Positions 16,465 to 36,999 of a stretch of DNA of 64,000 nucleotides are shown piece by piece. Each line of letters starts with the position of its first letter. Position 1 is the first letter of the stretch. The notes under the pieces were generated by a model. That model saw nothing but the letters and a program-made list of their open reading frames with translations. It did no database searches and was not told the DNA's origin. The DNA lies in assembly GCF_000711295.1 (NCBI RefSeq), contig NZ_JOMJ01000004.1, forward strand, positions 682,001 through 746,000, written 5' to 3'. Source of the DNA: Desulfohalovibrio reitneri (GTDB lineage: Bacteria > Desulfobacterota > Desulfovibrionia > Desulfovibrionales > Desulfovibrionaceae). The position numbers and the translations under genes are program-made.

Positions 16465-17976
16465 CTATTCTTCCCAGCCAAAACTGCGCTCCACGGCCAT
16501 CTTCCAGCGACGGTAGCCCTCGGCGCGTTGCTCCTCGGGCATGTTCGGGGTCCAGCGCTTGTCCTCTTCCCAGTTGTTGTAGAGCTCCTCGCGCTCCGAC
16601 CAGAACCCGGTGGCGATGCCCGCGCAGTAGGCCGCGCCCAGGCAGGTGGTCTCGGAGACCTTGGGGCGGATGACCGGCACGTCCAGCACGTCAGCCTGGA
16701 ACTGCATGAGCAGCTCGTTGGCCACCATGCCGCCGTCCACCTTGAGGACCTTGAGTTCCGTGGTGGCGTCCTTGTTCATGGCCTCCACGATGTCCTTGGT
16801 CTGGTAGGCGGTGGCCTCCAGCACGGCCCGGGCGATGTGGTTCTTTGTGGTGTAGCGGGTCAGGCCCACCATCACCCCGCGCGCGTCCGGCCGCCAGTAG
16901 GGGGCCAGCAGGCCGGAGAAGGCGGGCACTACATAGACCCCGCTGGTGTCCTCCACCTTGGCGGCCAATTCCTCCACCTGGGGCGCGGTCTCGATCATCT
17001 CCAGGTTGTCCCGCAGCCACTGCACCAGCGCACCGGCCAGGGCAATGGGCCCTTCCAGACAGTAGGAAGGCTTTCGGCCGCTGAACTGGTAGGCCAGGGT
17101 GGTGATGAGGCCGTGGGAGGACATGACCGGCTCGTGCCCAGTGTGCATGAGCAGGAAGCAGCCGGTGCCGTATGTGTTCTTGGCCTCGCCCGGGGTGAAG
17201 CAGGTCTGGCCCACCAGGGCGGCCTGCTGGTCGCCAACCGCGCCGCAGACCGGAATGCGCGCCCCCAGGGGGCCGGACTCCGAGGTGGGGCCCCAGGTCC
17301 CCTCGTCCGAGGAGGGCACGATGCGGGGCAGGCAGTGGCGCGGCAGGTCCAGCACTTCCAGGATGGAGTCGTCCCAGGAGAGGGTGCGCAGGTTCATGAG
17401 CATGGTGCGCGAGGCGTTGGTCACGTCGGTGACGTGCGCTCCCCCTTTGGGTCCTCCGGTGAGCCACCAGATGACCCAGGTTTCCATGGTGCCGAAGAGG
17501 GCCTCGCCCCGCTCGGCCGCCTCCCTGGCCTCGGGCACGGTGTCCAGAATCCACTTGAATTTGGGGCCGGAAAAGTAGGTGGAGACGGGCAGGCCGGTGA
17601 TGTCGCGGAAGCGGTCCTGGCCGCCCTCGGCGATGAGTTCCTTGCAGATGCCGTGGGTGCGGGCGCACTGCCAGACCACGGCGTTGTTGTACGGTTTGCC
17701 TGTCTTGCGGTTCCAGACGACCGAAGTCTCCCGCTGGTTGGTGATGCCGATGCCCGCCAACTGCTTGCCGGAGATGCCCGACTTGGTCAGGGCCCCCTTG
17801 ATGACCTCCTGGGTGTTGGCCCATATCTCCATGGGGTCGTGCTCCACCCAGCCCGGCTTGGGGAAAATCTGCCGGTGTTCCTTCTGGTCCATGCCGGCGA
17901 TGCGCCCCTTCTTGTCGAAGAGGATGAATCGCGTGCTGGTGGTCCCTTGGTCGATGGCTCCGATGTATTCGGCCAT
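16465..17976 (-). CDS. glpK: glycerol kinase
   Basis: The 503-residue FGGY-family kinase converts glycerol and ATP to sn-glycerol 3-phosphate in the cytosol. The N-terminal nucleotide-binding motif ([15 protein letters not shown]), [28 protein letters not shown] and the C-terminal [16 protein letters not shown] are all present, and the length matches the family. GGGAGG lies 7 bp before the ATG. It is the last catabolic gene of the glycerol transporter operon, downstream of a hairpin that may lower its expression relative to the binding protein. Confidence 0.96.
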
Positions 17977-18069: not shown

Positions 18070-19767
18070 TTACTGTTTCCAGGCCTTGATCATCTCGTCG
18101 TAGGGCATGGTCTTGGGTTCTTCCGGACCACGCTCCGGCTTGGGCGAGCCGGGCTGGTTCAGCCAGTACTCGCGGGACTTCTTGGGATTGAGCTCGGGGG
18201 AGTACTTGGCCATGCGCAGCTTGCCCATGATGTCGTCCATGGTCTCGGCCAGGTTGTCCATGGCCTGCTGCGGGGTAACTTCGCCGGTGACGGCGGAGGC
18301 CACGTTCTTCCACCACTGCTCGGCCAGCAGGGGGTAGTGGGGCACGTTGGGGCCGGAGTCGGTCCACATGTGCTCCACGGGGGACTTGTAGAAGGTGATG
18401 ATGCCGCCGAAGTCGCCTTCGCGCTCAGCCAGGTAGTCGGAGTGCACGGTGGACTTGCGGATGGGGGTGCGGCCCACCATGAACTTCTTCAGGCAGACGG
18501 ACTTGGAGGTGCAGAACTGCGCCCACAGCCAGGCGGCGGCGCGCTTGTCGCCGGTGACGGAGTCCTTGAGGATGGTCCAGGAACCGGCGTCCTGGTAGCC
18601 GACCTTCATGCCCTCTTCCCAGTAGCGGCCGTGCGGGGTGGGGGCCACGCGCCACAGCGGCTTGCCATTCTCGTCGGTGACGGGGCTTTCGGGATCGGTG
18701 AAGGCGGGGTCGGATAGCCAGGTGATGTACTGGAACACGCGCTGGGCCACGTTGCCGCGCGCGGGAGTGGGACCGGCCTCGGACCAGGTCATGGAGGCGG
18801 CGTACGGCGGGGCGTACTTTTTCATCCACTCGATGTACTTGGTGGTGGCGTAGACGGCCGCGGGGGAGTTGGCGGCGCCGCCGCGCTCGACCGTGGCGCC
18901 GCGGGGAATCTTGTTCTCCACGCGGATGCCCCATTCGTCCACGGGAAGGCCGTTGGGCAGGCCTTTGTCGCCCACGCCGGCGATGGACAGCCAGGCGTCG
19001 GTGAAGCGCCAGCCAAGGGAGGGCGACTTCTTGCCGTAGTCCATGTGGCCGTAGACGGTCTGGCCGTCGATGGTCTTGCCGGTAAAGAATTCGGCGATGT
19101 CCTCGTAGGCGGCCCAGTTGACGGGGACGCCCAGCTCATAGCCGTACTTTTCCTTGAACTCGGCCTTGAACTCGGGATCGGTGAACCAGTCGTAGCGGAA
19201 CCAGTAGAGGTTGGCGAACTGCTGGTCGGGCAGCTGCAGCTGGTTGCCGTCGTAGTCCTGGCCGAACTCGGGGTTCAGGAAGTCTTCCAGGTCCAGATAG
19301 GGGCTGGTGACGCCCTTGCCCTCGCCCTTCATGTACTCGGTGAGGTTCAGGGCCGAGTCCATGCGCAGGTGGGTGCCGATCATGTCGGCGTCGTTGACGT
19401 AGATGTCGTAGAGGGGGCGGCGGGTCTGGATCTGCCGCTGGATGCGGTCGACCACCGCGCCCTCGCCGATGATGTCGTGGGTGACCTTGATGCCGGTGAT
19501 TTCCTCGAAGGCCTTGGCCAGGACGTCAGCCTCCCACTTGTGGGTGGTGATGCCCTCGGCCACGGATTTAATCTCCATGCCCTTGTAGGGCTCGGCGGCC
19601 TTCTTGAACCACTCGAGTTCCTTGCGTTGCTCTTCCTTGCTGATGGCCGAGGGCTGGAATTCATCGATCCATTTGTCGATCGCGTCCTCGGCGAAAACGG
19701 TGCCCGGCAGGGCCAGCGCCGCCGCCACAAGAGCGGTCAGCAGCGCCAAGCGCAATGTTCCTCGCAT
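18070..19767 (-). CDS. glpV: glycerol ABC transporter, periplasmic binding protein
   Basis: The 565-residue protein has a signal peptide (MRGTLRLALLTALVAAALAL, cleavage after VFA) and a large type I binding-protein fold. It sits downstream of genes for two permeases, two ATPases and a DUF2160 protein and upstream of glpK, the same gene set as the glpSTPQUV glycerol transporter known from Rhizobium leguminosarum. It should capture glycerol in the periplasm. The ATG at 19767 was chosen because AAGGAG lies 6 bp upstream; an ATG two codons earlier is too close to the ribosome site. Assignment to glycerol rests mainly on operon context. Confidence 0.87.
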   Translation of the reverse strand: MRGTLRLALLTALVAAALALPGTVFAEDAIDKWIDEFQPSAISKEEQRKELEWFKKAAEPYKGMEIKSVAEGITTHKWEADVLAKAFEEITGIKVTHDIIGEGAVVDRIQRQIQTRRPLYDIYVNDADMIGTHLRMDSALNLTEYMKGEGKGVTSPYLDLEDFLNPEFGQDYDGNQLQLPDQQFANLYWFRYDWFTDPEFKAEFKEKYGYELGVPVNWAAYEDIAEFFTGKTIDGQTVYGHMDYGKKSPSLGWRFTDAWLSIAGVGDKGLPNGLPVDEWGIRVENKIPRGATVERGGAANSPAAVYATTKYIEWMKKYAPPYAASMTWSEAGPTPARGNVAQRVFQYITWLSDPAFTDPESPVTDENGKPLWRVAPTPHGRYWEEGMKVGYQDAGSWTILKDSVTGDKRAAAWLWAQFCTSKSVCLKKFMVGRTPIRKSTVHSDYLAEREGDFGGIITFYKSPVEHMWTDSGPNVPHYPLLAEQWWKNVASAVTGEVTPQQAMDNLAETMDDIMGKLRMAKYSPELNPKKSREYWLNQPGSPKPERGPEEPKTMPYDEMIKAWKQ

Positions 19768-19874
19768 CTCCATCTCCTTACTGAAAGGTTCGTGTATCCC
19801 ACCTTCAGCCAATCCTTCGGATGCCGCTATCACCTCCTTGTGCGGATACAAATTCTGGAACGGCGACCGTCCCG

Positions 19875-20171
19875 CTATCCCCGTCGTCCCTGGACAAGAA
19901 ACCAGACGACGGCGATGGCGGACGGTATGAGCAGCAGGCTGTTGCCCACGATCAAAAGCCAAAGCAAAAAGATCAGGATGGAGGTGATGATGCCGATGAA
20001 GAAACGGTCACCCCGCGTGGTTTTGATGGGGTAGAAGCCCTTGCGGGCGATGGAGGGGCTTCTGGCGTCCCACATTCCGAGCGCGGCGATGCAGAGGAGC
20101 AGCCCGCCGATGGCCAGGCCGCTCTGCCAGGTCCAGTACATCCATTCGGTCGCGTCGCGGAACCAGTCCAT
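19875..20171 (-). CDS. glpU: glycerol ABC transporter, small membrane subunit (DUF2160)
   Basis: The 98-residue protein begins MDWFRDATEWMYWTWQSGLA and has two hydrophobic helices (about 18-35 and 57-90) separated by a basic loop with RKGFYPIKTTRGDRFF. This is the DUF2160 pattern found only inside glycerol-type ABC operons. It starts 3 bp after glpQ. Its role in the transporter is unknown; it may stabilise the permeases. Confidence 0.85.
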   Translation of the reverse strand: MDWFRDATEWMYWTWQSGLAIGGLLLCIAALGMWDARSPSIARKGFYPIKTTRGDRFFIGIITSILIFLLWLLIVGNSLLLIPSAIAVVWFLVQGRRG

Positions 20172-20174: not shown

Positions 20175-20972
20175 CTACACCCTTCCCAGGGCGAAGCCCT
20201 TGGCCATGTAGTTGCGCACGAAGTAGACCACCACCGCGCCGGGGATGATGGTCAGGAAACCGGCCGCGGCCAGCAGGCCCCATTTCACGCCTTCCGCGCC
20301 GATGCCCACCGTCAGGGTGACGACCACCGGCTTGGCGTTGGTCACGGTCAGCGCCTGGGCCAGGATCAGTTCCACCCAGGAGAAGGTGAAGCAGAAGAAG
20401 GCGGTCACGCCGATACCCGGCCCGATGAGGGGCAGGAATATCTTCCTGAAGAAGCGCGGGAAGGAGTAGCCGTCGATGAAGGCTGTCTCGTCGATCTCTC
20501 GGGGGATGCCGGACATGAACCCTTCAAGGATCCAGATGGCCAGCGGGATGTTGATCAGGCAGTGGGCCAGAGCCACGGCCCAGACCGTGTCGTAAATGTG
20601 CAGGATGTAATAGAGTTCGGTGAAGGGGATCATGAACACCGCGGCAGGGGCCATGCGGTTGGTCAGGAGCCAGAAGAATAGATGGTGGGAGCCCCGGAAG
20701 TTCCAGCGGGAGAAGGCGTAGGCCCCAGGGATGGCCGCCACCAGGGTCATGATCACGTTGAGGAAGACGTAGGTCAGGGAGTTGATGAAGCTGTTCCGCC
20801 AGACCTCGGAGGTGAAAATCTCCATGTAGTGCTTGAAGGTGATCTCCTTGGGGAAGAAGGTCAGTTCCTTCAAGATCTCATTGTCCGTCTTCAACGAGGT
20901 GATGACCATCCAGTAGATGGGGATGAACAGCAGGACGAAGTAGACGATGAGGGCGATGCTGCGCTTTCTCAT
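20175..20972 (-). CDS. glpQ: glycerol ABC transporter permease 2
   Basis: The 265-residue inner-membrane protein has six hydrophobic helices and the cytoplasmic EAA-like coupling loop (EIDETAFIDGYSFPRFFRKI) that contacts the ATPases. It belongs to the MalG-type binding-protein-dependent permeases. Its ATG overlaps the glpP stop as ATGA, so the two permeases are made in a coupled way. The symbol follows the rhizobial glycerol transporter, not the unrelated phosphodiesterase GlpQ. Confidence 0.87.
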   Translation of the reverse strand: MRKRSIALIVYFVLLFIPIYWMVITSLKTDNEILKELTFFPKEITFKHYMEIFTSEVWRNSFINSLTYVFLNVIMTLVAAIPGAYAFSRWNFRGSHHLFFWLLTNRMAPAAVFMIPFTELYYILHIYDTVWAVALAHCLINIPLAIWILEGFMSGIPREIDETAFIDGYSFPRFFRKIFLPLIGPGIGVTAFFCFTFSWVELILAQALTVTNAKPVVVTLTVGIGAEGVKWGLLAAAGFLTIIPGAVVVYFVRNYMAKGFALGRV

Positions 20973-21826
20973 CCTTCCTCTCCTTTGCCCAGGTGGGTGA
21001 TTATCTGGAAGAACAGGTAGCAGAAAACAATGACGATGAAGAGGTAGATGATGGACACGGCTCCGGCGTAGCCCAAGTCATAGGACTGCGCCTTGCGGGC
21101 CACGTGCAGGGAGAGGAATGTCGTCGAACTCCCCGGACCGCCGCCCGTGAGCAAGAGCGGCTCCGCGTATATCTTGAACGAGTCCATGAAGCGCAGGAGC
21201 ACCGCCAGGATGAGCACCGGCTTGAGCTTGGGCAGGGTGACGTAACGGAAAGTCTTCCAGGCCGAGGCCCCGTCGATTTCAGCGGCCTGGTAGTAGGCGT
21301 CCGGGATGGCCTGCAGTCCGGCGAAGGAGAGCAGGGCGGCCAGCGGAGTCCAGTGCCAGACGTCCAGCAGGAAGATGGTGGCAGGGGCGTCGAAGGCGTC
21401 CAGGGCCACGTTGAAGTTGTAGCCGAACATGGCCAGGAGCTCGGGCAGGGGGCCGATGTCCGACTGGGTGAAGAGCCGCCAGATGATGCCCACCACGTTG
21501 AAGGGGATGAGCAGCGGGATGCCCAGAAGCACTAGGCAAAGCGCCATTTGCCATCCTTTGCGGGGCAGGGCCAGGGCGATGGCGATGCCCAGGGGGATCT
21601 CCACCGCCAGGATGAGGGTGGAAAGCACCAGCTGCCGACCCAGCGCGCCGCGGAAGGCGGGGTCCGCCAGGACCTCGGCGTAGTTCTCCAGCCCAACGAA
21701 CGTGGGCATGGAGCCAGCGAAAATGTAGTGGATGGAGTAGTTGATGACGGTCATAAGCGGGATGAACGCGCTTATGGAGACCAGGAACAGGGTGGGTATG
21801 AGGAAAAACCAGGCTCTGTTCTTCAT
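20969..21826 (-). CDS. glpP: glycerol ABC transporter permease 1
   Basis: The 285-residue protein begins MKNRAWFFLIPTLFLVSISAF. It has about six transmembrane helices and the EAA loop YQAAEIDGASAWKTFRYVTLP typical of MalF-type permeases. It pairs with GlpQ to form the membrane channel. It follows the ATPase gene glpT by 39 bp and overlaps glpQ by 4 bp. Confidence 0.87.
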   Translation of the reverse strand: MKNRAWFFLIPTLFLVSISAFIPLMTVINYSIHYIFAGSMPTFVGLENYAEVLADPAFRGALGRQLVLSTLILAVEIPLGIAIALALPRKGWQMALCLVLLGIPLLIPFNVVGIIWRLFTQSDIGPLPELLAMFGYNFNVALDAFDAPATIFLLDVWHWTPLAALLSFAGLQAIPDAYYQAAEIDGASAWKTFRYVTLPKLKPVLILAVLLRFMDSFKIYAEPLLLTGGGPGSSTTFLSLHVARKAQSYDLGYAGAVSIIYLFIVIVFCYLFFQIITHLGKGEEG

Positions 21827-21865
21827 GAGGCGTCTTCCCGCTTCTGGCTGTTGCTCTGGCGGTTT

Positions 21866-22969
21866 CTAGGCGATCCTGCGTTCATCGGAGAATACCTTGA
21901 TGTGCTGCTCGGGGAAGCGCACGGAGACCGTGTCTCCCTCCCGCGAGGTGATGCGCTCCGGCACCCGCGCCTTGAGGCGCAGGTCGTCCCTTTCCATGGT
22001 GTAGATGCGGTAGGCCCCGGTGTCCTCGATGATAGTCACATTCCACCGGGTCCAGGCGGGATCGTCCGTCTCCGTGTCGCCTCTCACCTCCACGTATTCC
22101 GGCCGCAGACCGATCTGCAGCTTGCCGCCCGCGCCGCGCAGGGTGGACAGCAGTTCGTCGGACGCGGGCAGCTGGAAGGAGCCGAAATCGAGCTTGCCGT
22201 CCGCCGGGGTCACGTCCAGGACGTTCATGCCCGGCGAGCCGATGAAGTAGCCGATGAATGGGGAGGCGGGCTCGGAGTGCAACTCGTCCGGCGACCCTTT
22301 CTGCACCAGCCGTCCGGCCCGGACGATGGTCACGTCCTGGGCGAAGGTCAGCGCCTCGTGCTGGTCGTGGGTGACGTAGATCATGGTCTTGCCGGTGTCG
22401 CGTTGCACCTGCTTGAGCTTGCGGCGCAGATGCCACTTGAGCTTGGGGTCGATGACCGTCAGCGGCTCGTCCAGCAGGATGGCCGAGGTGTCGTCGCGGA
22501 TGATGCCCCGGCCCAGGGATATCTTCTGCCGTTCGGCTGGGTTGAGCTTGGCCGCGTTGTGCTTGAGGTGCGGGGTGAGGTCCAACAGTTCGGCCACCTC
22601 CCGCACCTTGTCGCGCACCAGTCCTTCCGGCTGCTTCTGGTTGCGCAGGGGGAAGGCCAGGTTGTTGAAGACGTTCATGGAACCGTAGACCACGGGAAAC
22701 TGGAAGACCTGGGCCACCTTGCGCTCTTTTGGCGGCATGGCGGTCATGTCCTGGCCGTCGATGAGCACCTGGCCCTCGGAGGGGGTGAGCAGGCCGGAGA
22801 TGATGTTCAGCAGGGTGGTCTTGCCGCAGCCCGAGGGGCCCAGCAGGGCGTTGGCCGTGCCGTCCTCCCAGGTGATGGAGAGGTCCTTGACCGCCCATTC
22901 CCGCTCGTCCCGTGGAATCTCCGGGTCGGAGTAGGAGTGGGAGACGTTTTTCAGTTCAATGGTGGCCAT
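21866..22969 (-). CDS. glpT: glycerol ABC transporter ATPase (degenerate signature motif)
   Basis: The 367-residue protein has Walker A (GPSGCGKTT, 44-52), a Q-loop, Walker B (AILLDEP, D167/E168) and an intact switch histidine H201 (YVTHDQHEAL). The ABC signature is not LSGGQ but LNPAE (142-146, followed by RQKISLGRG). A regulatory OB-like C-terminal domain follows. It should pair with GlpS to energise glycerol import. Starts 4 bp after glpS. The symbol follows the rhizobial glycerol operon and is unrelated to the GlpT antiporter. Confidence 0.88.
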   Translation of the reverse strand: MATIELKNVSHSYSDPEIPRDEREWAVKDLSITWEDGTANALLGPSGCGKTTLLNIISGLLTPSEGQVLIDGQDMTAMPPKERKVAQVFQFPVVYGSMNVFNNLAFPLRNQKQPEGLVRDKVREVAELLDLTPHLKHNAAKLNPAERQKISLGRGIIRDDTSAILLDEPLTVIDPKLKWHLRRKLKQVQRDTGKTMIYVTHDQHEALTFAQDVTIVRAGRLVQKGSPDELHSEPASPFIGYFIGSPGMNVLDVTPADGKLDFGSFQLPASDELLSTLRGAGGKLQIGLRPEYVEVRGDTETDDPAWTRWNVTIIEDTGAYRIYTMERDDLRLKARVPERITSREGDTVSVRFPEQHIKVFSDERRIA

Positions 22970-22973
22970 GGCG

Positions 22974-24107
22974 CTAGCCCCTTGCCTCGGCGCGAGGGCC
23001 GTTGTTCTCGGGTTCGTCCGTCTTCAGCACCAGCTCGCGGGTGGAGGTGTCATAGAGGAAGAGGCGTTTGGGGTCGAGATAGACCTCGATGGACTCGTCG
23101 AGGTCGCTGTCCGCGAACTCCTCCACCAACATGACCAGCTGGCTGCTGTAGTGCTCCAGGTGCAGTTCCGTGTCAGAGCCGATGCGTTCGGCCAGCCGCA
23201 CGGAAACGGACATGGGCACCATGTCCGGGCGCTCGCGGGTCTGCTTGAGGTTGTAGGCGCGCACACCGACGATGTACTCGGAACGGTGCAGCCGGTCGGC
23301 GTATTCCGTCACGTCAACGCTGACCTCCTGGGAGAGGTGCAGGATGTGGCGGTCGCCGTGCACGTGCAGCTTGCCCTGCATGAGATTCATGCTGGGGTAG
23401 GAGAAGTAGTTGCCCACATCGGCCAGCCTGGGCATGCGGTAGACATCCTCCATCTCGCCCACCTGGAGGATCTCTCCTTCCTGCAGGTAGGCCACGTGGG
23501 TGGCCATGGAGAGCACGTCCACCGGGTCCGGAGTGGCGTAAACCACCACGCCGCCCTTCTGGCGGAGGATATTCTTCAGTTCGCCGCGCAGCTCCTCGCG
23601 CAATTTGTAGTCGAGGTTGGCCAGGGGTTCGTCCAGGAAGGTGAACTTGGCTTCCTTGGTTAGCGCCCGGGCGATGGCCACCCGCTGTTTCTGGCCGCCG
23701 GAAATCTCTTCAGGGAAGTGGTCCAGGACTTGGGAAAGACCCAGCAACTGGGCGTTTTCCCGCACCTTGCGGTCGATCTCGCCTTTGGAGAGCTTCTTGC
23801 CGCCCAGCCGGAGCGGCGAAGCGATGTTCTCGTAGACGCTCATGGAGGGGTAGTTGATGAACTGCTGGTAGACCATGGCCACCGGCAGCTTCTGCACGGC
23901 CTCCTTGGTCACGTCCTTGCCGTCGAAAAAGACGCGCCCCCTGTCCGGCATGTCGATGCCGCACATGATGCGCAGCAGCGTGGTCTTGCCGGCGTCGGAG
24001 GGACCGAGAATGGTCATGAACGCCCCGTCCTCGACCTCCAGGGAGACTTCCTTCAAGGCCGCTTCGCCTTGGAACGTCTTTGTTACCGAATCAACGACTA
24101 TTCCCAT
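22974..24107 (-). CDS. glpS: glycerol ABC transporter ATPase (switch histidine missing)
   Basis: The 377-residue partner ATPase has Walker A (GPSDAGKTT, 35-43), a canonical signature ISGGQ (135-139) and Walker B (TFLDEP, D159/E160). At the H-loop it reads YATPDPVD, so proline P193 replaces the histidine that normally senses the ATP gamma-phosphate. A MalK-like C-terminal domain follows. It is the first transporter gene, 57 bp past glpB. Together with GlpT it would form one intact and one degenerate ATP site. Confidence 0.88.
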   Translation of the reverse strand: MGIVVDSVTKTFQGEAALKEVSLEVEDGAFMTILGPSDAGKTTLLRIMCGIDMPDRGRVFFDGKDVTKEAVQKLPVAMVYQQFINYPSMSVYENIASPLRLGGKKLSKGEIDRKVRENAQLLGLSQVLDHFPEEISGGQKQRVAIARALTKEAKFTFLDEPLANLDYKLREELRGELKNILRQKGGVVVYATPDPVDVLSMATHVAYLQEGEILQVGEMEDVYRMPRLADVGNYFSYPSMNLMQGKLHVHGDRHILHLSQEVSVDVTEYADRLHRSEYIVGVRAYNLKQTRERPDMVPMSVSVRLAERIGSDTELHLEHYSSQLVMLVEEFADSDLDESIEVYLDPKRLFLYDTSTRELVLKTDEPENNGPRAEARG

Positions 24108-24164: not shown

Positions 24165-25436
24165 TCATCCCGACCGTGTCAAAGCCTCCACGGCGCGCAG
24201 CGCTGTGGCCAGGGCCAAACCGCTGCCGCACTTTTCCCTCACCCAGTCCTGTCCCGCCAGGATGGCCCCGGCGGCGTACAGTCCTTGCGTCGGCCGTCCC
24301 GATTCGTCCAGGGGCCGGAAATCGTCGTCCACGTCCAGCCCCGCCCGGTTCACCGGGTGCCCCCCGGCATCGAGAAAGTCTTGGCCGTGCCATTTTTCGC
24401 GGCCCCCGGGCTGGCGCACCGGCAGGCCGAACAGCGGCTCCACAAGCCTGTCACGTTTCGCCCGCAGTCCGCCGCCCAGGCAGCGGCCTCCGGCCAGCAG
24501 CACGTTGCGCGCCCGTACAGTCTCGCTTGCCCGGCCATACAGGCCCAGGTCAAGCTCGAAGTCGCTGTCGTTGCGCCGGACGGCCAGGACGTTGGCATCG
24601 GTGTGGATGCGCACGCCGCGCCCGCGCAGTTCCTCGGAAAAGCGCTCCCACATGCGCAAACCGGGGATTCCGGGGGGCATGGTGGGGATTTCGAATACCC
24701 GTACGCCGAGTCCCTCCTCCAGGCGGCGGTGGATTTCCCTGGTGCGGTAGAGCCCGAGCACTGCGGGCAGGCCCACGTACTCGGCGTGTTCGACGAGCGG
24801 GCGCAGCGCCTCCACCAGCCGGTCGCGGGTCTCGGGCGTCTCCAGGGTCTGGGAAAGCTGTTCGCAGTAGTGGTCCGGTGAATCCTCGAATCCGGGGAAG
24901 TCGATGACCTCCACGCGCAGGCCGGGCCACTTCTCGCCCTGGACCTCGGCGATCTGGCGCGGGCTGAACCCCTTCAGCCCCTTGAATCCCACGATCAGGC
25001 AAGGAGCCTTGGCCGCCAGCGCGTCGGCGTTGCCGCGCATGGTCGCGGGGACGCATGCGGTTCGCTTGACTGTGCCCAGGGGGGAGAGGATGGATTTGTT
25101 GGCCTCATGCAGCCCGGAGTAGGCCAGGCCCGATTCAGCGGAAAAATTCAAAAACTCCTCGAAGGAGCGGCCGGCGGCTTCCGCACCGGCCCGGGTCAGG
25201 GGGTGGCCGGGAAGGTCGGCGGAAAGAGCCTTCAGCGCCTGCATCGGGTCGTCCCAGGCACGGCTCTCGGCCACGGGGTGCACGGAGAGAAAGTCAAGGC
25301 AGCCGGAGGAGTAGGCCATGGCTCCGCTGGTGCCGGTCATGGCCGTGTCCAGGCCCCGGCCGGAAGCGAAGGCGGCCCCGGCCGCTCCGGCCATGCCCGC
25401 GCCGATGACGAACAGGTCGTGAATCCGCTCGGCCAC
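24165..25436 (-). CDS. glpB: anaerobic glycerol-3-phosphate dehydrogenase subunit B
   Basis: The 423-residue flavoprotein begins with an FAD-binding Rossmann motif (DLFVIGAGMAGAAGAAFA) and carries GlpB-like segments (SSGCLDFLSVHP, LYAAGAILAGQDW). It would form the GlpAB pair that oxidises glycerol 3-phosphate to dihydroxyacetone phosphate, passing electrons to a GlpC-type membrane-associated Fe-S protein. It begins with GTG directly after the glpA TAG (no gap), indicating coupled synthesis. Confidence 0.88.
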   Translation of the reverse strand: MAERIHDLFVIGAGMAGAAGAAFASGRGLDTAMTGTSGAMAYSSGCLDFLSVHPVAESRAWDDPMQALKALSADLPGHPLTRAGAEAAGRSFEEFLNFSAESGLAYSGLHEANKSILSPLGTVKRTACVPATMRGNADALAAKAPCLIVGFKGLKGFSPRQIAEVQGEKWPGLRVEVIDFPGFEDSPDHYCEQLSQTLETPETRDRLVEALRPLVEHAEYVGLPAVLGLYRTREIHRRLEEGLGVRVFEIPTMPPGIPGLRMWERFSEELRGRGVRIHTDANVLAVRRNDSDFELDLGLYGRASETVRARNVLLAGGRCLGGGLRAKRDRLVEPLFGLPVRQPGGREKWHGQDFLDAGGHPVNRAGLDVDDDFRPLDESGRPTQGLYAAGAILAGQDWVREKCGSGLALATALRAVEALTRSG

Positions 25437-26984
25437 CTAGTCCTCCAGGTCCAGGTTCAGCAGGCCGCAGTACAGGGCTTCCTGCAACTCGTTCTGCACC
25501 AGGGGCATGTCCCAGAGGATGGGACGTTGCCCGCGCCATCGCTCGGCCAGGAAGTCCCTGATGTTTTCCACGCCCTGCCTCTCTCGCAGAACGCCCCGGT
25601 CATAGAGGTGAGCCGTGGTGCGCAGGGCGCAGAAACTGCCCTGGCAGGACCCCTTACCCAGGCGGCTGCGGCGGGAGATGGCTTTCAGTCCCACGCGGGG
25701 ATCTTCGGCCATGTCGTCCAGTATGGCGTCCACCGCCTTCTTGGGGATCATCTCGCACTCGCACAGCACCACGTCCTTGGGGTCGACCGAAGTGATCTCC
25801 TCGAGGGCCAGGCCTCCCGGTTCGGTCCATCGCCAGGTTTCGCAGCAGGGGTAGGGCTCCTCGCGGGTGCGGCAGGGTGCGTTCACGCCCAGCTTGGCGC
25901 AGACCGAGTCGGCCGTCTTTTCGGCCATGAGGCGGAAGGTGGTCAGCTTGCCGCCGGTGATGGTCAGGAAGTTGTCCAGGCCGTCCTCGGCGTGGTCCAT
26001 GAGGGAGAATCCCCGGCTCACCTCCCGGTCGCCGCCGTCCTTGCCCCTGGGCTGCACCAGCGGGCGAACACCGGCGTAGGCGCGGATGTAGCGGGTCCGC
26101 TCCAGTTTGGGGACCATCCGCGATTCTTGTTCGATGATGTCGTCCACCTCCCGCACGGTGGGCAGGATGTTGTCGGGCGAATCCAGGCGGATGGAGGTGG
26201 TTCCGAGAATGGAGACGGTGCCGCCGGGCACCAGGATGTCGGAGTCGCTTGGCGGCCGGAGGCGGTTGATGACCCGGTGGGAGACGCGGTTGTGGCTGAC
26301 CACCAGGGTGCCTTTGGAATAAAGCAAGGGCACGTCCAGACCGGCCAGCCCGGCCACTTGTCCGGCCCAGGCCCCGGTGGCGTTGACGAAGATTTCCGCC
26401 TCGGCCTCGAAGCGTTTCCCGGTGCGGGTGTCCTCCAGGGTGGCGGAGCGGATGCGGCCGCTGTCGCGGGTGAAGGCCACCACCTTGGTGCGCCGAAGAA
26501 ATTTCGCCCCGTGCTCCCTGGCGTGGGAGACGTTTTCCAAAGCCAGGCGGAAGGGGTCGATGGAGGCGTCCTCCACCTCGTAGGCGGCGATGGTTTCGGT
26601 GGAGAGATGGGGCTCCCTCTCCCTGGCTTCATCAGGGGAAATCTCGCGGCAGGGAACGCCGCTGGCTTCGCAGTGGCCGGGAAAATCGGCGATGTAGGAT
26701 TCGTCGTCGCCCTTGACGGCCACGAACAGTCCGCCCGTGTCCTCGATGATGTCCGGGGCAAGCTGTTTGAGAAGGGCCGCTTCCTGGCGGCATTCGCGGG
26801 CTGATTCGGGATCGTTGGAGACGTATCGGGCCCCGGAATGGAGCAGGCCGTGGTTGGCCCCGGAGGTTCCGGCGTTGAGGTCGCGGCTTTCCACCAGGCA
26901 GCAATCCACGCCGCGAAGGGCGAGGTCCCGGAGTAGGCCGGTTCCAGTGGCCCCCCCGCCGAAGATCAGAACGCGTGTTTGCAT
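25437..26984 (-). CDS. glpA: anaerobic glycerol-3-phosphate dehydrogenase subunit A
   Basis: The 515-residue FAD enzyme begins MQTRVLIFGGGATGTGLLRD and has the GlpA/GlpD catalytic fold (GTSGANHGLLHSGARYV, VNATGAWAG, ITGGKLTTFRLMAEK). The C-terminal BFD-like domain has the cysteine set CECEM...GKGSCQGSFC expected to bind a [2Fe-2S] cluster, which separates GlpA from the aerobic GlpD. The long upstream frame was rejected because the Rossmann motif begins at residue 5 from ATG 26984. It is the first gene of the minus-strand glycerol operon, divergent from glpR. Confidence 0.93.
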   Translation of the reverse strand: MQTRVLIFGGGATGTGLLRDLALRGVDCCLVESRDLNAGTSGANHGLLHSGARYVSNDPESARECRQEAALLKQLAPDIIEDTGGLFVAVKGDDESYIADFPGHCEASGVPCREISPDEAREREPHLSTETIAAYEVEDASIDPFRLALENVSHAREHGAKFLRRTKVVAFTRDSGRIRSATLEDTRTGKRFEAEAEIFVNATGAWAGQVAGLAGLDVPLLYSKGTLVVSHNRVSHRVINRLRPPSDSDILVPGGTVSILGTTSIRLDSPDNILPTVREVDDIIEQESRMVPKLERTRYIRAYAGVRPLVQPRGKDGGDREVSRGFSLMDHAEDGLDNFLTITGGKLTTFRLMAEKTADSVCAKLGVNAPCRTREEPYPCCETWRWTEPGGLALEEITSVDPKDVVLCECEMIPKKAVDAILDDMAEDPRVGLKAISRRSRLGKGSCQGSFCALRTTAHLYDRGVLRERQGVENIRDFLAERWRGQRPILWDMPLVQNELQEALYCGLLNLDLED

Positions 26985-27040
26985 CCGGCCCGCCTCGCTT
27001 TCCCCACCGTCTGCCAAGGTTGGGTTTCGATCTTCACCGG

Positions 27041-27123
27041 ACTGTAACAGAATGGAATCTGCTTGCAAGTGAATATTTTCGGTATCGCCAGGATGGCGTG
27101 GGTAAATTTTCGTTTGCGAAAAT
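27041..27123. promoter_or_regulatory. glpA promoter and probable GlpR operators in the glpA/glpR divergent region
   Basis: On the minus strand TTGCAA (27063-27068), a 16-bp spacer and TACAGT (27041-27046) form a plausible glpA promoter. Just upstream are ATTTTCG-GTAT-CGCCAG (27075-27091) and a perfect palindrome ATTTTCG-TTTG-CGAAAAT (27106-27123), 31 bp apart, about three helical turns. Their position between glpR and the operon it should control makes them the likely GlpR sites. Confidence 0.6.
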
Positions 27124-27252
27124 CGCCGCCCGGACGTACATGAAAATGACACGGTTTCGTGAAGCAACGAGCCGGAATGGGCAGAACGTTCTTCGGGCCC
27201 GAGGACGACACGGGCCTGGGGTCCGGAAGCCGGGCCAAGAAAGGAGGGAACC

Positions 27253-28092
27253 ATTTCCACACGCGTCATCCCCTTCGGCGACCGCTGGCTGACCAGGGAG
27301 GAACTGGCGGGCCTGACTCCGCGGAGGCGGGACATTCTCTCCGCCGTGCACGAGCACGGCTATGTCTCCACGGAGAGCCTCGCCGAACGGTTCGACGTGA
27401 CCGCCCAGACCATCCGCCGCGACATCAATCTGCTCTGCGAAAAGGGGCTGTTGGTGCGCTACCACGGCGGCGCCGGCATCAACACCAGCGTGGCCAACCT
27501 GACGTATTCCACCCGCAAGGACCTGCACCGGGAGGAAAAGCGGAGCATCGCGGCCATGGTCGCCGCCAGACTGCCCAACCACGCTTCGCTCTTCCTGGAC
27601 ATCGGCACCACCTCCGAGGAGATCGCCCGGGCTCTCCAGGGCCACCAGGGCCTGCGCGTCATAACTAACAATCTCAACGTGGCCGTCATCCTCTCGGAGA
27701 ACGAGACGTTCGAGGTCACGGTCTGCGGCGGCCGGGTGCGTTCACGCGACAACGGTCTGGTGGGCGAGGGCGCGCTGGAGTTTCTGGAGCAGTTCAAGGT
27801 CGACTTCTGCGTCCTCACCCTCTCCGGCATCGACGCCGAGGGGCAGCTGCTCGACTACGACTACTCCGAGGTCAAGGCCATGCGCGTCATGATGCGCAAC
27901 GCGCGGTCAACATACTTGGCGGCGGATCATAGCAAATTTACCCGCACCCCCCTCATCAGCATCGCCCACATCGGCGAGGTGGACATCTTTTTTACTGACC
28001 GCCGGCCTTCCGATTCCCTGTGCCGCATTTTGCGGGAGAAGGGGGTGGAGCTGGTGCTGCCGGGTGAGGGGAAGGCCGAAGATGACATGTGA
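27253..28092 (+). CDS. glpR: DeoR-family glycerol regulon repressor, apparent AUU start
   Basis: The protein has the DeoR helix-turn-helix (RRRDILSAVHEHGYVSTESLAERF, then VTAQTIRRDINLLCEKGLL) and the sugar-phosphate-binding DeoR C-terminal domain (IGTTSEEIARAL, AADHSKFTR). It probably senses glycerol 3-phosphate. The first in-frame GTG (27346) falls inside the first helix of the DNA-binding domain, so it cannot be the true start. No ATG, GTG or TTG lies upstream in frame, but AAGGAGGG followed by AACC stands directly before an ATT at 27253. A 279-residue product from ATT is the best fit; CTG codons at 27304 or 27313 are weaker choices. Divergent from glpA. Confidence 0.85.
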   Translation: MSTRVIPFGDRWLTREELAGLTPRRRDILSAVHEHGYVSTESLAERFDVTAQTIRRDINLLCEKGLLVRYHGGAGINTSVANLTYSTRKDLHREEKRSIAAMVAARLPNHASLFLDIGTTSEEIARALQGHQGLRVITNNLNVAVILSENETFEVTVCGGRVRSRDNGLVGEGALEFLEQFKVDFCVLTLSGIDAEGQLLDYDYSEVKAMRVMMRNARSTYLAADHSKFTRTPLISIAHIGEVDIFFTDRRPSDSLCRILREKGVELVLPGEGKAEDDM

Positions 28093-28152: not shown

Positions 28153-29451
28153 ATGAGTGAAAAGTGCCGACTTCCGCGCGAGGCCAGGGAAGTGTCCTTC
28201 ATGCACATCGTGGAGGAAATCCTTCCCGAGGGGGGGCATCTGGACATGTGCCTGACCTGCGGTCTCTGCACCGCGGGCTGCCCGGCCACGGGCCTGGAGG
28301 GCATGGATCCCCGCAAGTTCCTGCGCATGGCCGCGCTGGGCATGGACAAGGAGGTCACCTCCACGCCGTGGATCTGGATGTGCACCCTGTGCCGCCGCTG
28401 CTCCCACGTCTGCCCCATGTCCATCGACATTCCCCAACTGGTCTTCCACGCCCGCGAGGCCTGGCCGCGCGAAGAGCGCCCGTCCGGCATCGTCAATTCC
28501 TGCGACGTGGCCCTGCGCACGCCCACGGCCAGCGCCATGGGAATCTCCGAGGAGGATTTCGAGTTCGTCGTGGGCGACGTGCTGGAGGAAATCCGCGAGA
28601 CCCAGGAGTGCTGCCGCGAGATCGTTGCGCCGGTGAACAAGCAGGGGGCCACCTTCTATCTCAACCAGAACTCGCGCGAGCCGGTTACCGAACCGGACGA
28701 GATGGTGCCCCTGTGGAAGATCCTCAACTACGTGGGCGCGGACTGGACCTATGGCACGGCCGGGTGGGCCGCGGAGAACTACTGCATGTTCGCCGCGGAC
28801 ACGGGTGCCTGGAAGAAGATCGTGGAGACCAAGGTCAAGGCGGTGGAGGGCCTGCGAGCCGACGTCTGGCTCAACACCGAGTGAGGGCACGAATTCTACG
28901 CGGTCCGGGCCGGGCTGCGAAAATTCGGCATCAAGCCCAGCTTTTCCCTGGAGAGCATCATTCCCTGGTACGCCCGCTGGATTCGGGAGGGCAAGCTGCC
29001 GGTCAATCCCGACTGGAACAAGGATCTGGGCGTGAAGTTCACCGTCCAGGATCCCTGTCAGCTTGTGCGCAAGTCCCTGGGCGACCCCGTGGCCGAGGAC
29101 CTGCGCTTCATCACCAAGGCGGTGGTGGGCGAGGAGAACTTCGTGGAAATGTATCCCAACAAGTCCAACAACTACTGCTGCGGCGGTGGCGGCGGGGCGT
29201 TGCAGGCGGGGTTCCACAACCACCGCCGGGCCTACGGCAAGCTCAAGTTCGACCAGATTCAGGCCACCGGGGCGGATTACGTCATCACCCCGTGCCACAA
29301 CTGCCACTCCCAGATTCACGACTTGGCCGGGTACCACGGCGCGGGCTACCACACGGTCCACCTCTGGACCCTCATCTGCCTGTCGCTGGGGATTCTGGGC
29401 GAGAACGAGCGGGCCTACCTGGGTCCCGATCTGGCGGAAGTGGGGCTGTAG
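28153..29451 (+). CDS. GlpC-like Fe-S oxidoreductase with in-frame UGA (probable selenoprotein)
   Basis: The frame from 28153 is interrupted only by TGA at 28882-28884 and continues without a shift to TAG at 29451, giving 432 residues with Sec at 244. N-terminal region: two [4Fe-4S] motifs (C33/C36/C39/C43-Pro and C77/C80/C83/C87-Pro). Then two CCG-type domains: the first is degenerate (NYCMF... WLNTE-U-GHEFY), the second complete (C302, C342-C343, C381 and C384 in TPCHNC). The UGA falls where this family has the Cys of the first domain. A SECIS-like hairpin follows. Next to glpR and divergent from glpAB, it is the obvious GlpC-type electron carrier from GlpAB to menaquinone or another acceptor; an HdrD-like role is the main alternative. 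Without Sec insertion only a 243-residue fragment is made. Confidence 0.82.
28899..28919 (+). promoter_or_regulatory. Candidate bacterial SECIS element
   Basis: Bases 28899-28906 pair with 28912-28919 (eight pairs, two of them G-U) around a 5-nt loop GGGCC. The loop starts 22 nt after the UGA, inside the spacing known for SelB-dependent bacterial SECIS hairpins, and begins with G-G as in the E. coli fdhF loop. It lies within the coding sequence, as bacterial SECIS elements do. Confidence 0.6.
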
Positions 29452-31978: not shown

Positions 31979-32015
31979 GGGTCGCGAGGCTATACGCCTT
32001 GCGGCCCTTTTTTTT
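31979..32015 (+). terminator. Intrinsic terminator inside the hdrA leader (attenuator or sRNA end)
   Basis: A 12-bp stem (31979-31990 with 31996-32007, two G-U pairs) with loop TATAC is followed by eight T residues. No plus-strand gene precedes it: the nearest upstream gene is on the minus strand. It ends 77 bp before the hdrA ATG, so it either attenuates the operon or ends a small RNA. Confidence 0.8.
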
Positions 32016-32091
32016 GTTCTCTTCTCCGGGGGGATTGGAACCGGGCAAGGGAACGTGGCGGATAGGGAAGCAACCCGCAAAGGAGGAAACC

Positions 32092-34101
32092 ATGGCGAAA
32101 GTGGGTGTGTACGTCTGTCATTGCGGCTCGAACATCGCCGGTGTGATCGATGTCGAGGCCGTACGGGCGTTCGCCGAGACGCTGCCTGACGTGGTCGTTT
32201 CACGAAAAGACCTCTTCATGTGCTCGGACTCGGGACAGGAACTCATCAAGCAGGACATCAAGGACGGCGTGGTGGACCGCGTCGTGGTCGCGGCCTGCAC
32301 GCCGCGCACGCACGAGCCCATTTTCCGGGGCGTCTGTGAGTCCGCAGGCCTGAACAAGTATCTCTTTGAGATGGCCAACATCCGCGACCAGTCCAGCTGG
32401 GTCCATCCGCAGGACCCCTCCGGGGCCACGGAGAAGGCCAAGATGGTCGTGTCCTCGGCCGTGGGCAAGGCAGCCCGGCTCAAGCCCCTCGAGGACAAGT
32501 TCGTGGACGTCACCCAGAAGGCCATGGTGGTCGGCGGCGGCGTGGGCGGCATCTTCTCCGCCCTGGAGCTGGCCAACATGGGCTACAAGACCTACCTCGT
32601 GGAGAAGGACCCCAGCATCGGCGGCGTGATGGCCCAGCTGGACAAGACCTTCCCCACCAACGACTGCTCCGCCTGCATCCTGACCCCGGTCATGGTCGAG
32701 GCGGGAAGCCACCCCAACATCGAGCTCATGACCTACTCCGAGATCGATGACGTGGAGGGCTTCATCGGCAACTACAACGTCAAGGTCCGCCGCAAGCAGA
32801 CCTACATCGACTGGAAGAAGTGCACCGGCTGCGGCGCCTGCGTGGACGTCTGCCCGGGCAAGGCCCCGGACAAGTTTGACGCCGGGCTCTCCAAGCGGTC
32901 CGCCGCCTACATCCACTTCCCCCAGGCCGTGCCCAAGAAGGCCGTGGTGGACATGGACTCCTGCCTCAACTGCGCCGGGCGCAAAATCGGCAGCGAGCCC
33001 AAAACCTCCAAAAAGACCGGCGAGCCCATGTACGCCCCGTGCGAGAAGGCCTGCCCCGCAGATGCCGTTGACCGCTCCATCAACTACAATCCCGAAGGGG
33101 AGATCGTTGAGGTGGACGTGGGCACCATCGTCGTGGCCACCGGCTACAAGGTCATGGAGAAAGACTGCTTCAAGGAGCTGGCTCCCCAGCACTCCAACGT
33201 CATGACCGCCCTGCAGTTGGAGCGGCTCATCTCCGCCACCGGCCCTACCGGAGGCAAGCTGCTCAAGCCCTCCAACAACGAAAAGCCCAAGACCATCAAC
33301 TTCGTCTCCTGCGTTGGCTCCCGCGACGTCAATCACCACACCTACTGCTCGCGGGTGTGCTGCATGTACATGATAAAACAGGCCCGGCTCCTCAAGGAGA
33401 AGTACCCGGACCTCGACATCTACATGCACTTTATCGACGTGCGCACCGCTGGCAAGGACTACGACGAGTACTACACCGGCGCGCGGCGCATGGGCATCAA
33501 CTTCCTCAAGGGCAAGGTCGGCTCCATCCAGACCCTCGACGACGACAAGATGCGCGTGGTGGCCTACGACATGGAGCACGGCGAGAACGTCGAGATCGAA
33601 TCCGACATGGTCATCCTGGCCACGGCCATCGAGCAGACCGAGAGCGCCAAGGGCTTGGCCCAGAAGCTCGGCCTGCAGTTCGACGGTTCCGGCTTCTTCA
33701 AGGAAATGCACCCCAAGCTCGGACCGGTGGAGACCGCCACCCAGGGCATCTACCTGGCCGGCTGCTGCCAGGGCCCCAAGGACATCCCGGACACCGTTTC
33801 CCAGGCCAAGGGCGCTGCCGCCGCGGCCGCCGTTCCGCTGGCCCAGGGCAAGGTCAAGATCGAGCCGATCATCTCCGAGGTGCACGCCGAGAAGTGCTCC
33901 GGCTGCGGCATCTGCGTGCCGTTGTGCCCGTACTCGGCCATCTCCATGAAGACCTTCGCCGACAGGCCCCGCGCCGAGATCGACATCACCCAGTGCAAGG
34001 GGTGCGGCGTGTGCACGGCCACCTGTCCCAGCGCTGCCATCGTGCTGCACGGCTACGAGGAAGAACAGATCATGGCCCAGATCGCGGCCCTGACCAGCTA
34101 G
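32092..34101 (+). CDS. hdrA: heterodisulfide reductase-like subunit A (FAD, bifurcating)
   Basis: The 669-residue cytosolic flavoprotein starts AKVGVYVCHCGSNIAG. It has an FAD-binding GGGVGGIFSALELANMG motif, an inserted ferredoxin site (KCTGCGACVDVCPG), the CSRVCCMYM cysteine cluster and two C-terminal [4Fe-4S] motifs (CSGCGICVPLCP, CKGCGVCTATCP). HdrA is the flavin-based electron-bifurcation centre in HdrABC-MvhADG complexes. All cluster positions use Cys codons, unlike the Sec-containing HdrA of some methanogens. The ATG at 32092 has AAAGGAGG upstream. It heads a six-gene operon with a hydrogenase, so ferredoxin reduction coupled to H2 oxidation is expected. Confidence 0.93.
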   Translation: MAKVGVYVCHCGSNIAGVIDVEAVRAFAETLPDVVVSRKDLFMCSDSGQELIKQDIKDGVVDRVVVAACTPRTHEPIFRGVCESAGLNKYLFEMANIRDQSSWVHPQDPSGATEKAKMVVSSAVGKAARLKPLEDKFVDVTQKAMVVGGGVGGIFSALELANMGYKTYLVEKDPSIGGVMAQLDKTFPTNDCSACILTPVMVEAGSHPNIELMTYSEIDDVEGFIGNYNVKVRRKQTYIDWKKCTGCGACVDVCPGKAPDKFDAGLSKRSAAYIHFPQAVPKKAVVDMDSCLNCAGRKIGSEPKTSKKTGEPMYAPCEKACPADAVDRSINYNPEGEIVEVDVGTIVVATGYKVMEKDCFKELAPQHSNVMTALQLERLISATGPTGGKLLKPSNNEKPKTINFVSCVGSRDVNHHTYCSRVCCMYMIKQARLLKEKYPDLDIYMHFIDVRTAGKDYDEYYTGARRMGINFLKGKVGSIQTLDDDKMRVVAYDMEHGENVEIESDMVILATAIEQTESAKGLAQKLGLQFDGSGFFKEMHPKLGPVETATQGIYLAGCCQGPKDIPDTVSQAKGAAAAAAVPLAQGKVKIEPIISEVHAEKCSGCGICVPLCPYSAISMKTFADRPRAEIDITQCKGCGVCTATCPSAAIVLHGYEEEQIMAQIAALTS

Positions 34102-34111
34102 GAGGAACGAG

Positions 34112-34621
34112 ATGGCGATTCAGCTGTCCAAGGATAAAATCGACGAGGCCATCAACACCATCATCGAATACGGTGGCGACGGCATCCAGCGCTGCGTGCA
34201 GTGCGGTGCCTGCTCCTCGGTCTGCCCCGGCGTGCAGGCCGGTTTCCCCGTGCTCTGCCGCCTGCTGATCAAGAAGCTGCAGGACGGGCTGCTGGAGGAC
34301 ATCATCGAGGAGCAGTCCTCTTGGGGGTGCCAGAACTGCAACCGCTGCACCGAGGTCTGCCCGCAGGGCGTGCGGCCGCAGGAAGTGGTCATCGCCTTCC
34401 GCCGCTACCAGGCCAATGAACTGGCCTTCTCCACCTCCACCGTTTCCGCGCAGATGCAGCTGCACGACATCGGCCACGCCGTCTTCACCGAGGCAGGCGA
34501 GCTGCGTGAGGGCGTGGGACTTCCCGGCAAGGCGCCCACCTCGGCGTACAACGAGAAGGCCCAAGAGGAGATTCAGGCCATCCTGGACAACAGCCCCATG
34601 GCCGAGCTGGGGCTCTTCTAA
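34112..34621 (+). CDS. hdrC: heterodisulfide reductase-like subunit C
   Basis: The 169-residue iron-sulfur protein has two [4Fe-4S] motifs (CVQCGACSSVCPG and CQNCNRCTEVCP) and carries electrons from HdrA to HdrB. AGGAACGAG precedes the ATG 10 bp after hdrA. Length and motif spacing fit HdrC. Confidence 0.92.
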   Translation: MAIQLSKDKIDEAINTIIEYGGDGIQRCVQCGACSSVCPGVQAGFPVLCRLLIKKLQDGLLEDIIEEQSSWGCQNCNRCTEVCPQGVRPQEVVIAFRRYQANELAFSTSTVSAQMQLHDIGHAVFTEAGELREGVGLPGKAPTSAYNEKAQEEIQAILDNSPMAELGLF

Positions 34622-34633
34622 AAGGAGCGGACA

Positions 34634-35551
34634 ATGGAAAACTACGGACTCTTCCTGGGGTGCAACATCCCCTTCAAGGCTCCTGACATAGAGCAGTCCT
34701 TCCGCAAGGCCCTGCCCGCCCTGGGCATCGGCCTGGAAGACCTGGAGGGTGCCTCCTGCTGCCCCGCCTGGGGTACCGCGCCCTCCTTCGACAAGCCCAC
34801 CTGGTGCGCCGTCTCGGGCCGCAACATCACCCTGGCCGAGGACAGGGGCATCGACTTGGTGACTGGCTGCAACTCCTGCTACGGCATCCTCTCGGAAGCC
34901 AAGCACTTCATGGACGCCCACCCCGAGCTGAAGAAGAAGGCCAACGAACTGCTGGCCCACGCCGGGCGGGAGTACAAAGGCACCTCGGAGATCTACCACG
35001 TCTCCCAGGTGCTGCATGAAATGGTGGGGCCCGAGAAGATCAAGCAGAACATCAAGTACGACCTGGAAGGCCTGAAGGTCGCGGTGCAGCCCGGCTGCCA
35101 CCAGCTCTGGCCCTCCGATGCCTACAAGATCAAAGAGGACAACCCCTACGAGCCCACCCAGCTCCGCGAGCTGGCCGAGGCCCTGGGCGCCAGCGCGCCG
35201 CACTACTCGCGTCTGTCCTCCTGCTGCGGCATGGGCGGCATGCGCACCGCGGACGTGGAGAAGTCCCTGGGGCTGTTCGCCGAGAAGATGCGTTCCATCA
35301 TCGAGGAGCTGGATCCGGACATCATCGTCACCACCTGTTCCTCCTGCTTCCTGCAGTTCGATATGTCCCAGCCCATCCTCCAGGAGCGCGGGCTGATCCC
35401 CAAGTCCGTGCCGGTGTTCTACTACACCCAGCTCCTGGCCCTGGCCATGGGCTTCGACCCCAAGGAAGTGGCGGCCATTTCCAAGACGCCGCGCGAGGAC
35501 ATCATCAAGGAGATCCAGAGCGAGAAGCGCCTGGTGAAGGAGGTCGCCTAG
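34634..35551 (+). CDS. hdrB: heterodisulfide reductase-like subunit B
   Basis: The 305-residue protein has two complete CCG domains: ASCCPAW with GCNSCYG, then PGCH, SSCCGMGG and TCSSCF. These bind the noncubane [4Fe-4S] clusters that reduce disulfides. In methanogens the substrate is CoM-S-S-CoB; in sulfate reducers an intracellular disulfide or trisulfide such as DsrC has been proposed. It lies 12 bp after hdrC and 2 bp before mvhD. Confidence 0.93.
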   Translation: MENYGLFLGCNIPFKAPDIEQSFRKALPALGIGLEDLEGASCCPAWGTAPSFDKPTWCAVSGRNITLAEDRGIDLVTGCNSCYGILSEAKHFMDAHPELKKKANELLAHAGREYKGTSEIYHVSQVLHEMVGPEKIKQNIKYDLEGLKVAVQPGCHQLWPSDAYKIKEDNPYEPTQLRELAEALGASAPHYSRLSSCCGMGGMRTADVEKSLGLFAEKMRSIIEELDPDIIVTTCSSCFLQFDMSQPILQERGLIPKSVPVFYYTQLLALAMGFDPKEVAAISKTPREDIIKEIQSEKRLVKEVA

Positions 35552-35553
35552 CC

Positions 35554-35973: not shown

Positions 35974-36006
35974 TGCCCGGCGTGAAGACACCACAAGGAG
36001 ATACCA

Positions 36007-36984: not shown

Positions 36985-36999
36985 GGCGGGAGGAATACA

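Follow-up and report, generated by a model that had tools for sequence, protein, structure and literature searches.

Selenoproteins listed as 'Fe-S oxidoreductase (GlpC)' have been recorded as a family since 2006 (PMC1794560), and have reappeared in PMC5029168, whose table row gives 31 and 47 (which we take as organisms and proteins), in PMC9312934, and in a 2026 review that notes their UGH motif and places them among the 'other' selenoproteins (PMC13188914); in these listings the family carries no assigned function. Two further described systems are close to the one reported here. In Desulfobacterium autotrophicum HRM2, HdrD4 and HdrF2 contain selenocysteine, and HdrF1 and HdrF2, clustered with glpAB, were put forward as electron acceptors of GlpAB (PMC2702500), so that electron transfer from GlpAB to a protein of the Hdr type has been published as an idea. 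EtfD uses Cys581 as a ligand of a linear [3Fe-4S] cluster and His583 as a ligand of the noncubane cluster next to it (PMC13083937). In the titles and abstract openings surveyed, nothing beyond the D. autotrophicum genome paper describes a glpAB locus with a Sec protein, and no literature was found that links glycerol with DVU3132, which we take to be the locus name of the Desulfovibrio vulgaris family member. The selenoprotein family is already known, and a glp-linked role for it has been little noted.

The window analysed here, a stretch of 64,000 nucleotides from Desulfohalovibrio reitneri, contains a member of this family within a glycerol locus (Table 1). As the initial annotation had stated, its frame is interrupted by a single UGA; the reading was verified over the 188 codons that follow, up to a TAG at 29449–29451, and read-through places residue 244 in the motif LNTE-U-GHEF. 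The split expected from ordinary annotation also occurs: a standard ORF call returns two frames, 28153–28884 (243 aa) and 29032–29451 (139 aa, GTG start), which shortens the gene and would lose its second half. The glycerol-gene neighbourhood is likewise as described, with glpR and the selenoprotein gene on one strand and the divergent glpA and glpB, followed by the ABC transporter genes and glpK, on the opposite strand. In the GlpA frame, about 115 N-terminal codons precede the TIGR03377 match, so translation of glpA probably begins further inside the frame, which would leave a wider gap to glpR. Genes for HdrABC, MvhD, VhuG and VhuA are located 2.5 kb downstream of the selenoprotein gene (31999–38466); their frames contain no in-frame TGA, Sec forms of HdrA, FrhD and FrhA being known elsewhere (PMC1794560).

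Table 1. Features of the locus, with positions in the window.
Feature	Position	Strand	Basis
Predicted selenoprotein gene, 432 aa with Sec244; two [4Fe-4S] motifs, degenerate CCG1, complete CCG2; HmcF/DsrK/HdrD-like	28153..29451	+	Frame, domain and family searches, codon column
UGA, predicted selenocysteine codon, residue 244, in NTE-U-GHE	28882..28884	+	TGA in 98/112 and Cys codon in 14/112 close copies
Two cubane [4Fe-4S] motifs, Cys 33/36/39/43 and 77/80/83/87	28240..28425	+	Pfam Fer4_8, residues 30-91; Cys invariance
Cys211 codon	28783..28785	+	Invariant in 112/112 close copies, absent in 9/9 distant
His246 codon; aligns with EtfD His583, noncubane cluster ligand	28888..28890	+	Profile alignment; PMC13083937
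SECIS-like hairpin, arms 28900-28906 and 28912-28918 with GGGCC (28907-28911) between	28900..28918	+	7/7 pairs in the window
Complete CCG domain, Cys 302, 342, 343, 381, 384	29041..29316	+	Pfam CCG, 297-388; Cys invariance
GlpR-like DeoR-family regulator; own stop TGA; 60 nt upstream of the selenoprotein gene	27346..28092	+	PRK10906, 263 bits (cut-off 331)
GlpA	25437..27335	-	TIGR03377, 574.8 bits, above cut-off
GlpB	24165..25436	-	TIGR03378, 210.6 bits, above cut-off
ABC transporter: two UgpC-like ATPases (22974-24107, 21866-22969), two permeases (20969-21826, 20175-20972)	20175..24107	-	Below family cut-offs
Solute-binding protein (SBP_bac_8), probably of the adjoining ABC transporter	18070..19962	-	Family search
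Glycerol kinase GlpK	16465..17976	-	TIGR01311, 732 bits, above cut-off

Close homologues, defined by E<=1e-100, were found in 94 of the 348 genomes of the order, that of the window included; a class-wide search covered the same 348 genomes. These genomes gave 117 close matches, 14 of them without TGA, and 112 were used, including the copy in the window, whereas the five left out (four partial, and one with a score equal to that of another match in its genome) all had TGA. The residue 244 column of the 112 close copies contains 98 UGA and 14 Cys codons and no other codon. When nine distant homologues were added, the resulting 121 rows showed TGA in 104, TGC in 14 and TGT in 3, the distant rows contributing six TGA and three Cys. 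The alignment of Cys with the UGA, which the initial annotation had proposed as a check, is thus observed in 14 of the 112 close copies and in three of the nine distant ones. Among named genomes, the best 80 of at least 558 confirmed loci comprise 81 copies, 78 with U and 3 with C; this set overlaps slightly with the first, since 7 of the 80 loci (L169-L173, L176, L182) lie on contigs that match contigs of the first set in length. No relative was confirmed in viral contigs among 104 pattern matches.

Two further groups of relatives were observed. Six loci (L153, L157, L158, L159, L160, L161) form a distant second subfamily, 31–36% identical, in which this column is likewise TGA (motif PEUGHAY or PEUGHSY) and Cys211 is absent. 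In addition, a Cys paralogue with the motif NIECGHSF adjoins a Sec copy on five contigs (G211:C5, G275:C1, G276:C2, G277:C12 and G338:C236, carrying L074, L070, L073, L072 and L071, respectively). All five paralogues group together in a well-supported branch made up of nine Cys-form rows, and the paired Cys and Sec copies lie downstream of hdrABC genes in four of the five cases, L071 being the exception.

A bacterial SECIS element is a hairpin located just 3' of the UGA with a G in its apical loop. The conserved loop G is indicated in a figure legend of PMC1794560, and both features are present at 28900–28918. The initial annotation had a hairpin beginning 22 nt past the UGA; the hairpin is real, but 22 nt marks the start of its loop, and the 7-bp stem starts after a spacer of 15 nt (28885–28899). 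Stem pairing in the 98 Sec rows, which share kinship and are not independent, averages 6.79 of 7 pairs (7 pairs in 78 rows, 6 in 19 and 5 in one), as against a mean of 4.42 (sd 0.105, maximum 4.73) in 1000 synonymous recodings. Pair 4 of the stem is GC in 77 of these rows, AT in 8, GT in 4, TA in 3 and unpaired in 6. Pairing in the 14 Cys rows is lower, with a mean of 4.14, although three of them still have 6 of 7; in the same register, between 4 and 6 pairs form in the six distant Sec rows, and the 78 Sec copies of the named genomes (among the best 80 of at least 558 loci) have 7 pairs in 36 and 6 pairs in 42. For the copy in the window, a folding program gave a longer stem of 9 bp that closes on a loop of 3 nt. 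An Rfam search of the 64-kb window at the gathering threshold returned a tRNA as its sole match.

The sel genes, whose presence was a further proposed check, were all found in the same genome above family cut-offs: selA (603.5 bits), selB (352.8 bits), selD (341.8 bits) and tRNA-Sec (82.5). A single TGA also occurs within selD (G000:C3:436642-437562), pointing to a Sec-type SelD. By comparison of lists, selA (E<=1e-60) is present in 83 of the 91 genomes with the TGA form; the eight genomes lacking such a match (G050, G053, G056, G057, G060, G228, G229, G338) are 53–94% complete. Cys forms alone occur in three genomes; of these, G091 and G201 possess selA, while G177, glp-linked and 95% complete, gave no selA match at E<=1e-60.

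Taken together, the order-wide in-frame UGA, the Cys in other homologues, the conserved SECIS-like hairpin and the complete set of selA, selB, selD and tRNA-Sec indicate that the UGA is almost certainly read as selenocysteine, as the initial annotation had claimed. That the UGA is instead a true stop, whether of a decayed gene, through a sequencing error or between two separate proteins, agrees with the two frames of the standard ORF call and with the use of UGA as the ordinary stop of glpR and glpB in the window, but its likelihood is minimal given the identical TGA in 98 of 112 close copies with Cys in the remainder, the invariant Cys residues C-terminal of the UGA, a hairpin conserved beyond synonymous chance and the sel genes in the genome. 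The pseudogene, error and two-gene readings were accordingly discarded on the conserved TGA and the conserved downstream Cys, and genome-wide UGA recoding was ruled out by the TGA codons that terminate glpR, glpB and a permease gene in the window.

The 432-residue read-through protein exhibits two [4Fe-4S] motifs followed by one complete C-terminal CCG domain, as detected with Pfam. The full CCG motifs claimed in the initial annotation therefore stand for the C-terminal domain, the only match to Pfam CCG (297–388), and not for the N-terminal lobe, which is degenerate; similarly, the UGA does occupy the first Cys of the CxxC of the first CCG domain, but within that degenerate lobe. The five CCG2 Cys and four of the cubane Cys are conserved in 112 of 112 close rows, and the remaining four cubane Cys in 111 of 112, one row being incomplete. 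Cys117 and Cys211 are present in all 112 close rows and in none of the nine distant ones; by this alignment the selenoprotein family has Cys211 as an additional Cys. The other N-lobe CCG Cys of canonical GlpC have no counterpart in the alignment. The GlpC-like identity originally assigned to the protein was not upheld by family models: the best NCBIfam matches, all far below cut-off, are HmcF (169 of 750 bits), TmcB (157 of 735) and DsrK (114 of 400), and on the scores of TIGR03379 (38 of 279.9 bits) and PRK11168 (50 of 278) a canonical GlpC was ruled out.

An AlphaFold model, computed from a 39-row alignment with Cys in place of residue 244, reached pLDDT 86.7 and pTM 0.86, with pLDDT below 50 in loop 345–350. 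The best fold match of this predicted model was EtfD (9ojn; Z 23.9, rmsd 3.0, 369 residues aligned), followed by HdrB chains (Z 20-21), LutA (19.9) and a Helicobacter pylori protein (19.7). Its predicted fold, like that of EtfD and HdrB, suggests an HdrCB/EtfD-type electron carrier. In a profile alignment, Sec244 corresponds to EtfD Cys581 and His246 to EtfD His583. A different function has to be weighed at this point, namely that Sec244 is catalytic and undergoes exchange with a disulfide, either of a protein or of a small molecule (for example DsrC or an Hdr-type heterodisulfide), which would make the protein a reductase and not just a relay. Consistent with this proposal are the HdrB fold match of the predicted model, the disulfide cleavage performed by the noncubane clusters of HdrB (PMC13083937), the Cys-Gly-His of the DsrK of the same genome at the Sec position, and Cys211, which is invariant in the close family, missing in three relatives of the same genome as well as in the nine distant rows, and could pair with Sec244. 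Against it, His246 matches EtfD His583, the residue that renders that cluster non-catalytic (PMC13083937), and we judge a reductase to be rather improbable.

The genes adjoining the 112 close copies point to several partners of the electron carrier. hdrABC was found beside 40 copies, glp genes beside 17, hdrA-vhu beside 12, a sigma-54 regulator beside 11 and other genes beside 32, the last figure being an upper bound since some copies lie near contig ends. As no adjacent glpA was seen for 95 of the 112, glp is just one partner among several. Of the 17 glp-linked copies, all beside glpA/glpB and spanning three families (f1, f3, f4), 15 have Sec and 2 have Cys. In a first tree, with the nine distant rows as outgroup and L098 not counted as glp, the glp label needs 3 changes. 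In a second tree, of the 112 close rows, the 17 occupy one side of a branch (SH-aLRT 97.4), a count that includes L098, which was moved from 'other' to glp after the first tree had been seen and whose glpA fragment, at 62% over 156 aa, was verified only later. Both are quick trees (LG+G4, no bootstrap). Among the best 80 of at least 558 loci of named genomes, L170 and L172 (Sec) and L213 (Cys) are glp-linked; L170 and L172 are apparently two of the 17 copies (G021, G175), and L213 belongs to Desulfopila aestuarii, whose genome also has a Sec copy, L181.

Canonical GlpC (E<=1e-60) occurs in 88 of the 348 genomes and GlpB (E<=1e-30) in 157. At E<=1e-60, no canonical GlpC was found in the genome of the window, in 14 of the 17 glp-linked genomes, or at any of the 17 glp-linked loci themselves. 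The three glp-linked genomes that possess one (G177, G229, G230) encode it beside a second glpB elsewhere, and their linked loci show the order glpA-glpB-selenoprotein-family gene on one strand. With 17 copies beside glpA/glpB, a single tree group and no canonical GlpC at those loci, a member of the selenoprotein family probably serves as GlpC in the glp cluster. The linkage pattern points to replacement of canonical GlpC, although this is not the only solution in the order: at least 55 genomes (157 - 88 - 14) encode GlpB but lack both canonical GlpC and a linked copy, so that other acceptors are open to GlpAB. Moreover, Sec is not essential to the role, as two of the 17 glp-linked copies have Cys, one of them (G091) in a genome with selA.

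These neighbourhoods also bear on the possibility that GlpAB is not the partner, and that the protein serves the HdrABC-Vhu cluster 2.5 kb downstream or acts as a general thiol/disulfide acceptor, its position beside the glp genes being due to chance. Such a role would fit the 36 Sec and 4 Cys copies that adjoin hdrABC and the 12 that adjoin hdrA-vhu, the HdrABC, MvhD, VhuG and VhuA genes close by in the window, and the published Sec operon in which 'GlpC' is coupled with hdrA-frhDGA (PMC1794560). However, the glp-linked copies form a single group across families f1, f3 and f4, no Hdr query protein was found within 7 kb in 16 of the 17 (several of them on short contigs), and in the window the intervening RNase Z and dehydrogenase genes are on the opposite strand. 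We therefore regard a chance association with the glp genes as unlikely.

The explanation that we favour, and consider likely as a whole, is that the gene encodes a 432-residue selenoprotein, an HdrCB/EtfD-type carrier that takes the place of GlpC at the glp cluster. SelB and tRNA-Sec would decode UGA-244, helped by the hairpin 15 nt downstream. By analogy with EtfD and HdrB, the protein would bear two cubane [4Fe-4S] clusters in front and a complete CCG domain holding one noncubane [4Fe-4S] cluster, while the stripped-down first CCG lobe would retain Sec244 and His246. Electrons from the GlpAB flavins would pass to the noncubane cluster and then to the cubane clusters, with the quinone pool or an acceptor of the Hdr type as their destination. 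The GlpC-place step is drawn from the linkage, the single glp-linked group and the absence of canonical GlpC at those loci. More speculatively, Sec244, two residues from the presumed ligand His246, may tune or protect electron entry at the noncubane cluster; the lower potential envisaged for a Sec residue in the initial annotation is likewise speculative. In its most specific form, this explanation would have a lineage of sulfate-reducer-type bacteria exchange canonical GlpC for the selenoprotein, with Sec244 and His246, in the reduced lobe of CCG1, sitting at the noncubane [4Fe-4S] cluster of CCG2 and Sec contacting or ligating this cluster at the site of electron handover from the GlpAB flavin, a proposal that we put forward as quite doubtful. 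If true, it would represent a natural selenolate at an Hdr-type cluster. Because the glp-linked group provides a likely partner and a simple assay, glycerol-3-phosphate oxidation, the role of Sec is directly testable, and the glpAB-adjacent copies, naturally Sec in 15 and Cys in 2 of 17, offer material for comparison.

Compared with the listed 'Fe-S oxidoreductase (GlpC)' family, found in deltaproteobacterial anaerobes, characterized by the UGH motif and including a D. vulgaris member (PMC1794560, PMC13188914, PMC5029168), the protein described here is likewise a UGH-motif Fe-S protein; the published operon is glpC-hdrA-frhD-frhG-frhA (PMC1794560), whereas here we find linkage to glpAB and an apparent displacement of GlpC. 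With HdrD4 and HdrF2 it shares the combination of Sec and an Hdr-type protein in a sulfate reducer (PMC2702500). HdrF, however, has transmembrane helices (PMC2702500) and the alignment of the present protein to EtfD is confined to the soluble part of the latter; HdrD4 may be the nearer match. EtfD of Mycobacterium smegmatis (9ojn) resembles it in the two cubanes, the CCG2 domain and a Cys-x-His at the Sec position, but possesses a heme membrane domain and a second, linear cluster (PMC13083937). The alignment starts at EtfD residue 277 and leaves out this N-terminal membrane domain; Cys581 is replaced by Sec, Cys584 by Glu (in the window) or Val, and Cys503 and Cys538 are beyond the aligned part. 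With no counterpart of the ligand Cys584 in the alignment, an EtfD-type first cluster (D1) cannot be assumed. HmcF, TmcB and DsrK are the best family models, and the DsrK of the same genome (L249) and a second relative encoded there (L250) both have Cys-Gly-His at the Sec column; nevertheless, Cys211 is absent in the three aligned relatives of this genome, L250 having a Cys at 117. Finally, canonical GlpC (TIGR03379, E. coli type) shares the slot beside glpAB and the Fer4 plus CCG layout and differs in its family model, matched here by only 38 of 279.9 bits, in the first CCG lobe, reduced here, and in Sec. The position in the glpAB locus thus speaks for GlpC-like working, and not for membership of the GlpC family.
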